NCBI GenBank assembly: GCA_014377675.1
Contig: JACMPD010000145.1
Span: 1-50,341 of the forward strand
Direction of reading: 5' to 3'
From: Taibaiella sp.
GTDB taxonomy: Bacteria; Bacteroidota; Bacteroidia; Chitinophagales; Chitinophagaceae
Length of the DNA stretch: 50,341 bases
Shown: piece by piece, positions 9,016 through 12,553 of the stretch
How positions within the stretch are numbered: position 1 is the stretch's first letter
Layout of the letters: every line of letters begins with the position of its first letter
The notes under the pieces: model-generated
Database searches by the model: none
What the model was told of the DNA's origin: nothing
What the model saw: only the letters and a program-made list of their open reading frames with translations
Position numbers and translations under genes: made by a program

Positions 9016-9954
9016 TCAAAGTAAGTCTTTCAATGCATTTTGCATATCGGGATATTGAAATTTGTATCCTTCATTAAGCAGCCTGGCCGGCAATACCCAT
9101 CGGCTTTTGAGCAACAGCTCGGTTTCTGTGCCCTGAATAAATGCCGCTACCTTCAGCAACCATTCCGGAGCGGGAATACCAACGGGCATGTTGTAGATCT
9201 GGCGGAGCGTTTTCATAAATATACTGTTTGTTACCGGGCGGGGGGAACTTACATTGTACACCCCGCCTGCCCGCTTATTATCAGCCAGCCACTCCATAAC
9301 GCCTTGCACATCGGCCATGTGCACCCAGCTGAACATTTGCCGGCCATCGCCATGCCTGCCGCCCACGCCCAACCGAGCCAGCCAGCCATACGGAACCAGT
9401 ACCCCACCCTTACCCAAAACAATGGCCATTCTTAAAACTGCTTTGCGGGTATGCGGCATGTGGGCCGCATCAATTGCCTGCTCCCATACCTTGCATACCT
9501 GCACGGAAAAATCATTTTCTATTTCACCGGTTGCCTCGTCCTGAGGTCGGTCTTCCGCATGGCGGTATATAGTTGCAGAGGTCACCTGTATAAACAGTTC
9601 AGGCGGGCGGGTCATCTGCTTTACGGCCTGCCCCAAAACATGTGTTGCGTCAATACGGCTGTTGATAATTTCGGTTTTGTTCGCCTCATTGTAACGGCAG
9701 TTAACGCTGCGGCCGGCGAGATTAACCAACAAATCGCAACCATCAATCTGAGCCGCCCAGGGGCCAATGGTTTTACCGTCCCATTGCAGGTATTGCACAT
9801 TGGCTGGCATTGTGGCTTTGCCGAAGGTATTGTTGGCGGCGCCTTTTATATTGCGGGTTAGTACGGTCACTTTGTTATGTTTGCTCCATTCGGTGGCAAG
9901 TTGCTGACCAACAAACCCAGTGCCACCCGCAAGAATTATATTTTTATTTTTCAT
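9016..9954 (-). CDS. TIGR01777-family NAD(P)-dependent epimerase-like protein
   Basis: A 312-residue extended short-chain dehydrogenase/reductase of the SDR39U1/YfcH group. Visible are the Rossmann loop GGTGFVGQQLA near residues 10-20, LLVNLAGRSVNCRY, the conserved SRIDAT segment, SATIYRHAEDRP in the active-site region, and LGKGGVLVPYGWL. The C-terminal part (PAPEWLLK and LLKSRWVLPARLL) is the DUF1731 cap. In this group the classical YxxxK pair is often altered; here the tyrosine of ATIYRH is kept but the lysine is not obvious. The physiological substrate of the family is unknown. The gene starts only 18 bases after the last of three tandem small-membrane-protein genes and probably shares their transcript. 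Confidence 0.85.
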   Translation of the reverse strand: MKNKNIILAGGTGFVGQQLATEWSKHNKVTVLTRNIKGAANNTFGKATMPANVQYLQWDGKTIGPWAAQIDGCDLLVNLAGRSVNCRYNEANKTEIINSRIDATHVLGQAVKQMTRPPELFIQVTSATIYRHAEDRPQDEATGEIENDFSVQVCKVWEQAIDAAHMPHTRKAVLRMAIVLGKGGVLVPYGWLARLGVGGRHGDGRQMFSWVHMADVQGVMEWLADNKRAGGVYNVSSPRPVTNSIFMKTLRQIYNMPVGIPAPEWLLKVAAFIQGTETELLLKSRWVLPARLLNEGYKFQYPDMQNALKDLL

Positions 9955-9972
9955 AAAACGATGCTTTAACTG

Positions 9973-10392
9973 CTAAAGATTGGTTTCTTGTTCAATAAGT
10001 GCATCGGCTGCCTTCCTGCGTAACACTTCTTTGATCAGTTGGAATTCAGTATGTGTATCAATAAAGTACCACGCCGCCATTATAACACCTATAAAAAGCA
10101 TGGCTATCGCGATGAGGCCAAAAACGGTTATACTTACAATAAGCGTTACCAGTGCTAAAGATACAATAGTGGCTGTCGCAATTTCGAGGATGATGCGGGT
10201 ACTGGTTCGAATAAGTTTTGGCAGAAAGAGCCGGTTGAGGATGATACTCAGTAGTTGCACCCCGCCAACCGTAAAATAGGCGAGCGCGAGAAACCCGATG
10301 TCACCTGTAACCAAAAATGTAACCAGCGGGATAGCGAAAGCCATAATTTGTGCCCAAAAGTCTATTCGCTTGTAAAAGAATATCTTTTTCAT
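9973..10392 (-). CDS. small four-helix membrane protein, paralogue C of a tandem trio
   Basis: A 139-residue protein with about four hydrophobic helices and no recognised domain. It opens with MKKIFFYKRIDFWAQ, has VGGVQLLSIILN after helix 2 and AAWYFIDTHTE after helix 4, and ends in a polar tail. The same three landmarks occur at the same positions in the two genes immediately upstream, so the three clearly arose by tandem duplication. Helix content and lack of polar catalytic residues fit a small integral membrane protein of unknown role. The gap to the preceding paralogue is 30 bases and to the epimerase gene 18 bases, which suggests one transcript. No known family name is claimed. Confidence 0.75.
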   Translation of the reverse strand: MKKIFFYKRIDFWAQIMAFAIPLVTFLVTGDIGFLALAYFTVGGVQLLSIILNRLFLPKLIRTSTRIILEIATATIVSLALVTLIVSITVFGLIAIAMLFIGVIMAAWYFIDTHTEFQLIKEVLRRKAADALIEQETNL

Positions 10393-10422
10393 ACAAGGGT
10401 TTTAAAATGATAAGTGCTGGTA

Positions 10423-10845
10423 TCAACAACCTGATTTTACCTGTTCCCCGATATATTGTGTTTCGGTAATGGTAATAACAAAGTACCAAAACGCCAAAAC
10501 AAACCCAATGACGACCATGGCGAAACATGTAAATATAATGAGCCCGCCTACAAAATGGGTGTATGTGTAGTCATTACCGAGTAAGACGGCAAGCCATAAA
10601 GCAATAACTATAATAGTAATAATGATAAGGCATAAATTATACCTATGTCTTTGCTGATGCCGGAACTGAGCAGGGAGGTAAAGGTGGTTTACAACACAAC
10701 TAATGATTTGCACCAAACCCAGTGAACCATAAATGGAAAAGAAAACAGACGCCTGATTAACTAGGCACCCCGTTACTATTGGGATGGATACGGCCAGCAA
10801 CTGCAATGCAATGTCGGCTCTTTTGTAAAGTAATATCTTTTTCAT
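10423..10845 (-). CDS. small four-helix membrane protein, paralogue B of a tandem trio
   Basis: A 140-residue protein with about four hydrophobic helices. It shares with its neighbours the opening MKKILLYKRADIALQ, the middle motif LGLVQIISCVVNH and the late motif LAFWYFVITITE. The segment between helices 2 and 3 is His/Arg-rich (FRHQQRHRYN) and would face the cytoplasm or periplasm, depending on topology. There is no signal peptide beyond helix 1. Its function is unknown. It lies 40 bases after paralogue A and 30 bases before paralogue C on the minus strand. Confidence 0.75.
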   Translation of the reverse strand: MKKILLYKRADIALQLLAVSIPIVTGCLVNQASVFFSIYGSLGLVQIISCVVNHLYLPAQFRHQQRHRYNLCLIIITIIVIALWLAVLLGNDYTYTHFVGGLIIFTCFAMVVIGFVLAFWYFVITITETQYIGEQVKSGC

Positions 10846-10885
10846 AATAAAGTGTCAGCGGATTAATTAAAGGGGAGCATTAGTT

Positions 10886-11266
10886 CTATACAAATTCTTT
10901 CCTGGCAACAAAGCTGCTCATGCGGCGCATTTCAAACAAGGAAATTGAAGCATACCATACCGCAAGAACCGGACCACCCAACAAAAGAACAATCCGGACC
11001 AAAATGGAAATAGATGATATAAGCAAAGATAAGGCTGAAAAATAAATGAATAGTAGTAATATATGTTCATATCGTGATCTTGACTCTGCCTGTAAAAACT
11101 GATCGAAAGAGGAATGATTGACTATACAGCTGATAACCTGAACTGCGCCGACCGTATAGTAAAGCGACATAGGAGTATGACCGTTTGCTACAAAATAAAG
11201 ACTGATGAGCAAAATGAAGACCTGGCCGAAAAAGTCAACTCTCTTGAAAAACAGTGTCGTTTTCAT
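10886..11266 (-). CDS. small four-helix membrane protein, paralogue A of a tandem trio
   Basis: A 126-residue hydrophobic protein, first of the three tandem paralogues in the direction of transcription. It starts MKTTLFFKRVDFFGQ, carries VGAVQVISCIVNH in the middle and LAVWYASISLFE near the end. The middle motif is nearly identical to that of paralogue B (ISCxVNH), less so to C, so A and B look like the closer pair. Function is unknown. It follows another small membrane protein gene (11341-11745) by 74 bases, so a longer transcript starting further upstream is possible; I saw no good promoter in the gap. Confidence 0.72.
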   Translation of the reverse strand: MKTTLFFKRVDFFGQVFILLISLYFVANGHTPMSLYYTVGAVQVISCIVNHSSFDQFLQAESRSRYEHILLLFIYFSALSLLISSISILVRIVLLLGGPVLAVWYASISLFEMRRMSSFVARKEFV

Positions 11267-11340: not shown

Positions 11341-11745
11341 TTATCTGCCGGCGATATTGTCGGGGTCTATTCTATAGTCATAGGCTTTGTTTTGTTTTTC
11401 TGCGAGTGCACGTTTGCGGAGCCTGAAGAAAACAAACATATTAAAGAAGTGCATGCCGCCCAGTATTAATATGATAGCCCCCAATTTGTAACTTAATACC
11501 TCAACTACCTGTTGCGCATCTATAACATATTCGCGGGTTTTAAGGGTATAGATGGCATAGCCGATATTAATGAGGTAAAAGCCGACCCATAAAAGATTGT
11601 TGACCGCCTGCGCGAGCTCTTCATTGCCATGGAAAATATCAATAAGAAATACCTGGCCATTCCGGAAGAGTGTATGGGCTACCCAAATAGTAAGAGCAAT
11701 GGTAAAAGTGAGGTAGAACGCGTATAAAATGAGGATGTTGTTCAT
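11341..11745 (-). CDS. uncharacterised membrane protein with three or four helices
   Basis: A 134-residue membrane protein. Helix 1 (about residues 3-25), a helix near 50-68 and one near 88-110 are clear, and the C-terminal 22 residues are charged and should be cytosolic. It resembles no paralogue in the neighbouring trio: the KRxDF and VQxIS motifs are missing. It lies between that trio and a GbsR/MarR-type regulator gene on the same strand. I recall similar proteins in other Bacteroidota but cannot name a function. The ATG at 11745 is the first in the frame and is followed directly by a strong hydrophobic segment. Confidence 0.7.
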   Translation of the reverse strand: MNNILILYAFYLTFTIALTIWVAHTLFRNGQVFLIDIFHGNEELAQAVNNLLWVGFYLINIGYAIYTLKTREYVIDAQQVVEVLSYKLGAIILILGGMHFFNMFVFFRLRKRALAEKQNKAYDYRIDPDNIAGR

Positions 11746-11898
11746 AAAAAAAATGTGAAAATGTGTGAGAAAAGAGATATTGTTCAGGGTACAGCTTCAT
11801 TGCGGCAATACTATAATGGCGGGGCATGTATATTTCTGTTCATAGCAAATGTTTTGTACTGACGGAATTTTCAGAAAATTATGAAAGATATTGTGTTT

Positions 11899-11918
11899 TA
11901 AAAAAACCGTTTCCGGTT
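11899..11918 (-). terminator. terminator of the GbsR-type regulator gene
   Basis: On the minus strand a 5-bp stem capped by a GAAA tetraloop (11905-11909 with 11914-11918) is followed by six or more T (complement of 11899-11904). It lies about 40 bases after the regulator's stop codon. Confidence 0.6.
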
Positions 11919-11958: not shown

Positions 11959-12474
11959 CTACTTAAACAATTTTAAAAGTGTACCTGTAAACCAATGTTC
12001 GTCCATTTTCACCAGTCCATCAATGCCCTTACTCGCCTGCCCTGCAAATTTCTGAATGTCGTTAATTATCCCCACAAATTGTTTGGCGTCCGCTGCATTT
12101 TTGTCGCCTTGTTCCGCTTCTACGTTTTTAAGCTGGTTAAGGGCATTCAAAATCGGCTCTACTTCCCTGCGCTTGCGCTCTTTTACTATGCGCATAGATA
12201 CCGTCCATATATCTTTTTCGGCAGAGAAAAACTCTTTGCGCTCACCTGGTTTTAGTACCTTTTCCACTATGCCCCAGTTTATCAGTTCGCGCACATTCAT
12301 ATTAGTGTTCCCCCTGCTTATCTTCAGCTCAGTCATAATATCATCGGCACTCATTGGCTCCGGGGAAACAAGCAACAGCGCATGAATCTGCGCCATGGTC
12401 CGGTTTATCCCCCATTGGGACCCTAAGACTCCCCAGTTCTGAATAAATTGCTGTTTAGCATCTGCCAGTTTCAT
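11959..12474 (-). CDS. GbsR/MarR-family winged-helix regulator
   Basis: A 171-residue DNA-binding protein. Residues 20-95 form the winged helix-turn-helix: WGINRTMAQIHALLLVSPEPMSADDIMTELKIS, then RGNTNMNVRELINWGIV as recognition region and a basic wing (KPGERKEFF). The remaining 75 residues are helical and probably dimerise. GbsR of Bacillus senses choline and controls glycine betaine synthesis; members elsewhere have varied, mostly unknown ligands, and no betaine genes are present here. The regulator is followed on the same strand by small membrane proteins that could be its targets (inference). A strong promoter ends five bases before the ATG, so its transcript is predicted to be leaderless. 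Confidence 0.85.
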   Translation of the reverse strand: MKLADAKQQFIQNWGVLGSQWGINRTMAQIHALLLVSPEPMSADDIMTELKISRGNTNMNVRELINWGIVEKVLKPGERKEFFSAEKDIWTVSMRIVKERKRREVEPILNALNQLKNVEAEQGDKNAADAKQFVGIINDIQKFAGQASKGIDGLVKMDEHWFTGTLLKLFK

Positions 12475-12478
12475 AACA

Positions 12479-12510
12479 CAAAGCTATCAATTATATTCCG
12501 AACTTTCAAA
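12479..12510 (-). promoter_or_regulatory. strong promoter of the GbsR-type regulator, predicted leaderless
   Basis: On the minus strand TTTG (12507-12510), then 20 bases, then TAGCTTTG (12479-12486) matches the consensus closely. The last G is five bases upstream of the ATG at 12474, so the transcription start should coincide with the start codon. Confidence 0.7.
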
Positions 12511-12553
12511 ATTTACTGAAAATAAAATCTCGTGTTATTTGCGGCAATGTTTA

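Follow-up and report, generated by a model that had tools for sequence, protein, structure and literature searches.

The GbsR family of MarR-type repressors includes GbsR, OpuAR and CydE, and its osmostress subgroup has an aromatic cage for choline or glycine betaine; for the Bacteroidetes members of the family, the excerpted text of the 2018 survey gives no consistent picture of the neighbourhood and derives no process for them from it (PMC6207618). The locus described here is headed by a regulator (R) that is homologous to the MJ223 template and weakly to CudC, and is likewise probably a local repressor of the operon next to it. Unlike the members treated in that excerpted text, R adjoins small membrane proteins (M and K) and a TIGR01777 protein (E), not genes for osmolyte uptake or cydAB. 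E resembles the YfcH/ThyD group of SDR-like proteins in scoring above the TIGR01777 cut-off, but it falls below the ThyD cut-off (200.2 against 400 bits) and is tied here to a GbsR-type operator. Some leader peptides with proline motifs make the ribosome pause, and the locus contains a micro-ORF that is like them by description: it is short, lies just after an operator and has adjacent prolines. It differs from them in that no structured attenuator was found in its region, judged on 16 rows against mononucleotide shuffles. We found no description of the R-M-K-E unit in paper titles and abstract openings, a scope outside which most of the subscription literature lies.

The window, that is, the whole stretch of 50,341 nucleotides that was analysed, comes from an assembly broken into 306 contigs, with a completeness of 84.55%. 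The original prediction singled out a tandem trio of paralogous small membrane proteins with an epimerase-like gene. All four ORFs are indeed present on the minus strand, separated by gaps of 40, 30 and 18 bp, and the three small ones are paralogs: querying their genome with the 139-aa protein retrieves both others, with E-values of 2e-14 and 8e-10 (40% and 29% identity). Among the motifs proposed for them, KRxD[F/I] near the start holds, the middle one reads VQxxSxxxN, and the last has six residues between WY and E instead of five (WY-x6-E). The epimerase-like gene was rightly assigned to TIGR01777 (258.6 bits for a cut-off of 207.35), which it matches over positions 1-292 of 292. The trio does not stand as a unit, however: K belongs to a larger operon led by a regulator, and is mostly found there in one copy where it is present at all. 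M, R, two operators, a terminator-like hairpin and the micro-ORF had been passed over (Table 1).

Table 1. Features of the R-M-K-K-K-E locus, in positions of the window
Feature	Position	Strand	Basis or remark
Operator 1, TTTCA-N8-TGAAA, upstream of R	12504-12521	minus	conserved, shuffle-tested; candidate site
TTTG of likely R promoter (-33), inside operator 1	12507-12510	minus	
TAnnTTTG box	12479-12486	minus	in 8/11 loci listed, window included
R, GbsR/MarR-type regulator	11959-12474	minus	171 aa; MarR_2 over Pfam cut-off, 1ku9 match
Terminator-like hairpin and T run, between R and operator 2	11905-11918	minus	
Operator 2, same palindrome, before M-K-K-K-E	11869-11886	minus	conserved, shuffle-tested; candidate site
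Micro-ORF, 10-residue peptide with His-Ala-Pro-Pro	11811-11843	minus	first ATG after operator 2
M, conserved small membrane protein	11341-11745	minus	134 aa; no family over cut-off
K paralog 1	10886-11266	minus	126 aa; homology searches
K paralog 2	10423-10845	minus	140 aa; homology searches
K paralog 3	9973-10392	minus	139 aa; four helices, mean pLDDT 92
E, TIGR01777/DUF1731 SDR-like protein	9016-9954	minus	312 aa; Pfam and NCBIfam scans

The locus is most likely an inner-membrane operon repressed by R. In the reading that we favour, to which we give a probability of about 45%, it is a two-promoter operon under this one dedicated GbsR/MarR-type regulator, its products act on lipids or the envelope, and its array amplifies a single K. 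R, probably as a dimer, would bind two copies of TTTCA-N8-TGAAA, one covering the -33 region of the R promoter and one where the M-K-K-K-E transcript starts, and would repress both transcripts until released by a ligand, as operator position, conservation and the precedent of MarR suggest. The second transcript would carry the micro-ORF first, followed by M, three K and the TIGR01777 enzyme. K and E, joined in relatives by DCC1, DUF2071, SRPBCC-like proteins and a desaturase, would modify or protect membrane lipids or a hydrophobic envelope compound. This lipid or envelope role, proposed from gene company only, is perhaps correct, and is the weakest step. The array itself would be the amplified form of a K that is normally single.

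R passes the MarR_2 cut-off of Pfam (29.0 against 27 bits), matches the MJ223 structure 1ku9 (E-value 4.9e-22) and remains under the equivalog cut-off for the choline regulator CudC (55.9 against 218 bits). Of 18 genomes, 17 carry R once and one has none. The named relatives of R put the genome near Chitinophagaceae. Among the R matches listed, the closest named genus is Flavipsychrobacter, whose R is 84% identical. Counts over the 80 named loci given below refer to the best 80 of at least 587 R matches; elsewhere in our set, L249 and L103 are one locus under two names, as are L059 and L316.

Upstream of R, the exact palindrome TTTCA-N8-TGAAA is found in 79 of the 80 named loci, for a shuffle mean of 0.12, and the single exception has one mismatch. 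A palindromic site at regulated promoters is a feature of MarR proteins. Of 71 gaps separating R from the gene that follows, 62 hold a second palindrome (shuffle mean 0.1); these gaps, of 40-420 nt, come from 87 loci, including the window and six others, and related loci were counted separately. Operator 2 precedes M in 18 of 18 cases, K in 21 of 22 and E in 18 of 19 (57/59 jointly), against 1 of 6 for the CoA-binding gene (C), a difference that suggests which genes form the regulated set. It is also found before DCC1 (2/3) and before other genes (2/3). When K starts 25 nt or less after R, there is no room for a second palindrome. We infer from this co-conservation that R binds the operator.

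Could the palindrome be a general promoter element rather than the operator of R? The right half of operator 1 does contain the -33 TTTG of the likely R promoter, which is completed by a TAnnTTTG box ending 4 bases before the R start codon; we take this pair to be a Bacteroidota-type promoter (-33/-7). However, the strict operator pattern has four sites in the window's own genome, two of which are at the R-M-K-K-K-E locus, and its dyad is invariant around a variable, AT-rich spacer, which makes a general promoter element very improbable. Over 10 genomes, the strict pattern gave 34 rows, some palindromic sites being counted on both strands, against 7 for the reversed control, and 15 of the 34 were at R loci. 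As the -7 box is only 4 bases from the start codon, the R mRNA may be leaderless. The 12 gaps read showed no TAnnTTTG box downstream of operator 2.

A search of the phylum retrieved R in 123 of 395 genomes, and we read 40 stretches from these, 4 of them from the window's family. The exact palindrome was present upstream of R in 29 of the 40 (25 of 36 outside the family), although in one of the 29, L297, it is far upstream and probably there by chance. E lies downstream of R in 19 of the 29 palindrome-bearing stretches (16/25 outside the family), against none of the 11 without palindrome, in the sequence read; most of these 11 R are distant proteins beside unrelated genes, but two genomes of the same order, L319 and L318 (R scores of 217 and 230 bits), also have no palindrome there. 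It is missing upstream of R as well in G009, a genome of the window's genus whose R is 52% identical. Outside the family, the first gene after the second palindrome is often DCC1-like or DUF2071. Other Bacteroidota families keep R, the putative operator and E. The operator and the recurring M/K/E set constitute a candidate regulon, with a definable DNA site, for members of the Bacteroidetes subgroup of GbsR proteins.

The interval between R and M holds two further elements. Before operator 2, a hairpin with a T run occurs in 41 of 49 gaps (mean of 1.7 in mononucleotide shuffles). After operator 2, a micro-ORF with His-x-Pro-Pro or His-Pro-Pro is present at all 17 distinct long-spacer loci of the window lineage. 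Our initial set, with operator-M spacers of at least 92 nt, had 16 rows representing 15 distinct loci or DNAs and 13 peptides; the motif was in the ORF opened by the first ATG in 15 of 16 rows (0.025 in shuffles), while that of L055 opens at the second ATG. The peptide has a His, replaced once by Arg, and then Pro-Pro, either directly or after one residue; the first Pro is at residue 7-11. Codon use is mixed at the first Pro (CCG 5, CCA 5, CCT 5), the second Pro (CCA 6, CCT 4, CCG 2, CCC 3) and the His (CAC 9, CAT 5), and this free variation of the third base is a coding signature. The first ORF has the same motif in L344 and L347, two genomes from outside the initial set with spacers of 128 and 123 nt. 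No micro-ORF is present at six distinct M loci whose spacers measure 28-46 nt.

The micro-ORF is thus a compact candidate leader peptide, which we suppose to be translated and regulatory. A hairpin attenuator was considered and dropped, since the RNA from the micro-ORF to the M start formed no fold clearly below mononucleotide shuffles in the 16 rows; Rfam gave nothing credible (one match, E-value 0.81). When scanned over 8 genomes, the micro-ORF pattern had 13 matches, 5 of them at the locus described here, for 5 in the reversed control. Six of the 8 off-locus matches are inside or antisense to genes, one is intergenic without a next gene on the same strand, and the last (G007:C62) precedes a 274-aa gene and has no operator. 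The micro-ORF thus does not have the appearance of a general leader. A bolder version of our reading, for the window's lineage, has repression by a GbsR-type protein common to many Bacteroidota families and ribosome pausing on the His-x-Pro-Pro leader tune M-K-E together, in a new envelope system built of expandable four-helix subunits and a TIGR01777 enzyme; we regard it as doubtful, if conceivable.

The proposal that K is an undescribed family agrees with our searches, as the three window copies are under every Pfam and NCBIfam cut-off. Their relatives, scanned in Pfam only with matches listed without cut-offs, showed no family matching more than 3 of 22 or 2 of 40 members, the best single match being EI24 (E-value 3.6e-5, one member only). 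Sequence and fold searches of the PDB returned no significant match for K; the best VIA-align Z-score was 8.4, a level that the tool calls common for helical bundles. Profile comparison found M and K unrelated. The four helices anticipated for K are predicted in the one copy modelled with AlphaFold, at residues 2-29, 33-56, 64-86 and 88-137. In an alignment of 40 of the 57 K then collected, K8, D11, R66, Y109 and E116 are invariant (40/40), followed by Q46 and S49 (39/40), Y69 (37/40) and Q15 (36/40). Lys and Arg average 2.45 at the N-terminus, 3.5 in the loop between helices 2 and 3 and 3.45 at the C-terminus, while the remaining loops average 0.72 and 0.35. This suggests that the family has a single orientation, N-in/C-in, in the inner membrane; from charge bias and helix positions, the conserved residues would be towards the cytoplasmic side. 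The heteromeric complex first suggested for the trio is neither favoured nor disfavoured by this one orientation and one set of conserved residues.

This topology bears on two other explanations of the locus. Tandem four-helix proteins of 126-140 aa next to a MarR-type repressor recall an efflux cassette, with K as SMR-like exporters and E as an unrelated passenger, and MarR regulators often control efflux. However, SMR pairs have dual topology, whereas the charge bias of K gives one orientation; moreover, the 40 K members have no SMR match at E-values up to 0.05, and the operator is kept before E even where no K is detected. Efflux thus seems quite unlikely. Alternatively, K and M could be membrane anchors or sensors relaying the state of the envelope to R or E, with the array providing input variants. 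Conserved K residues would then face the cytoplasm, where R and E would sit, and the varying copy number of K and the divergence of its copies, far faster than that of R and M, would find an explanation. Since no soluble sensor domain was seen and many R-headed loci have no detected K, we consider this unlikely, though not far-fetched.

Identity within the genus is 79-85% for R, 66-75% for M and mostly 25-38% for K. A comparison of two close relatives gives dN/dS values of 0.03 for R and 0.01 for M, and the K pairs give 0.08-0.32 (one pair in the table is saturated, and two rows are one gene pair under two locus names), values that indicate constrained K proteins. By these estimates, K is constrained yet evolves far faster than R and M. 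Fast-diverging, tandem small membrane proteins might also evoke an immunity-type or defence array under diversification, but dN/dS is far below 1, synteny is broadly conserved, and the only PADLOC match among the six window proteins is that of R, with 18 bits to Csa3; such an array is barely credible. Plasmid records and viral contigs contained no relative of the 139-aa K, leaving a mobile or phage origin without support.

K is present in 81 of 294 genomes and 36 of 101 genera of the family, and in 9 of the 395 genomes of the phylum sample, counting the window's own and two weak cases. Among the 80 named loci, 39 have no detected K, 32 have one, 7 have two and 2 have four. As K is usually single where present, the window array is a lineage expansion. 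The duplications are old and strongly diverged, as first proposed. The idea of one old duplication kept as an array held only in part: the duplications are real, but the K tree, with its few columns, points to arrays arising more than once, and K is mostly single. In this tree of 103 rows (leaving out L017, L021 and L022, duplicates of L097, L098 and L095, and rows with E-values of 1e-9 or above), the three window copies are not joined and several arrays elsewhere cluster by genome, so that duplication probably happened more than once.

In Chitinophagaceae, the operon takes the form R-(K)n-(M)-(DCC1)-E-C, in varying subsets, C being a CoA_binding_2 gene. Collinear runs after R in the 80 named loci include C in 57 cases, E in 45 and K in 41; M (14 cases), the DCC1-like gene (11) and DUF2071 (4) are less frequent there. 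The window order is nearly repeated in L109 (R-M-K-K-E). The link of K to the TIGR01777 gene is real and extends beyond one strain: among the 72 named loci whose sequence continues for 3 kb or more past R, 18 have both after R. K and E are not obligate partners, since the five other genomes of the window genus with full downstream sequence have no E after the array, which fits loss, and K goes undetected in most Chitinophaga loci. L122 has a 79-residue piece of E at the E position. M, whose model is weaker than that of K (pLDDT 73), has no fold match in the PDB. The accessory genes of relatives, DCC1-like, DUF2071 and FA_desaturase, all over Pfam cut-offs, and SRPBCC-like proteins, named by eye with no Pfam match, point to redox or lipid chemistry and no further. 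The locus also places a TIGR01777 protein in a putatively regulated membrane operon.

In many Chitinophagaceae loci (L102-L169), CoA_binding_2 is followed by genes for a small exported protein, a metalloprotease-like protein (both named by eye) and a 157-aa protein; in Chitinophaga loci, the 157-aa protein follows alone. The window's own genome also has a tandem pair of full-length TIGR01777 genes (C43:3362-5380, L201), with no operator in the stretch, and G009 has such a pair as well (L202). Elsewhere in the same genome, we found a diverged K-like protein of 150 aa (G000 C122:10485-10886; L093:6474-6923, minus strand; E-value 4.6e-7). Its gene adjoins VTT-domain (DedA-type) and MFS genes, opposite a nucleotidyltransferase-like gene (named by eye), and this gene set recurs in L207, L336 and L353. 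A VTT-domain gene lies beside the diverged K-like protein in 4 of 9 such loci read, a neighbour that weakly fits the membrane-lipid theme.
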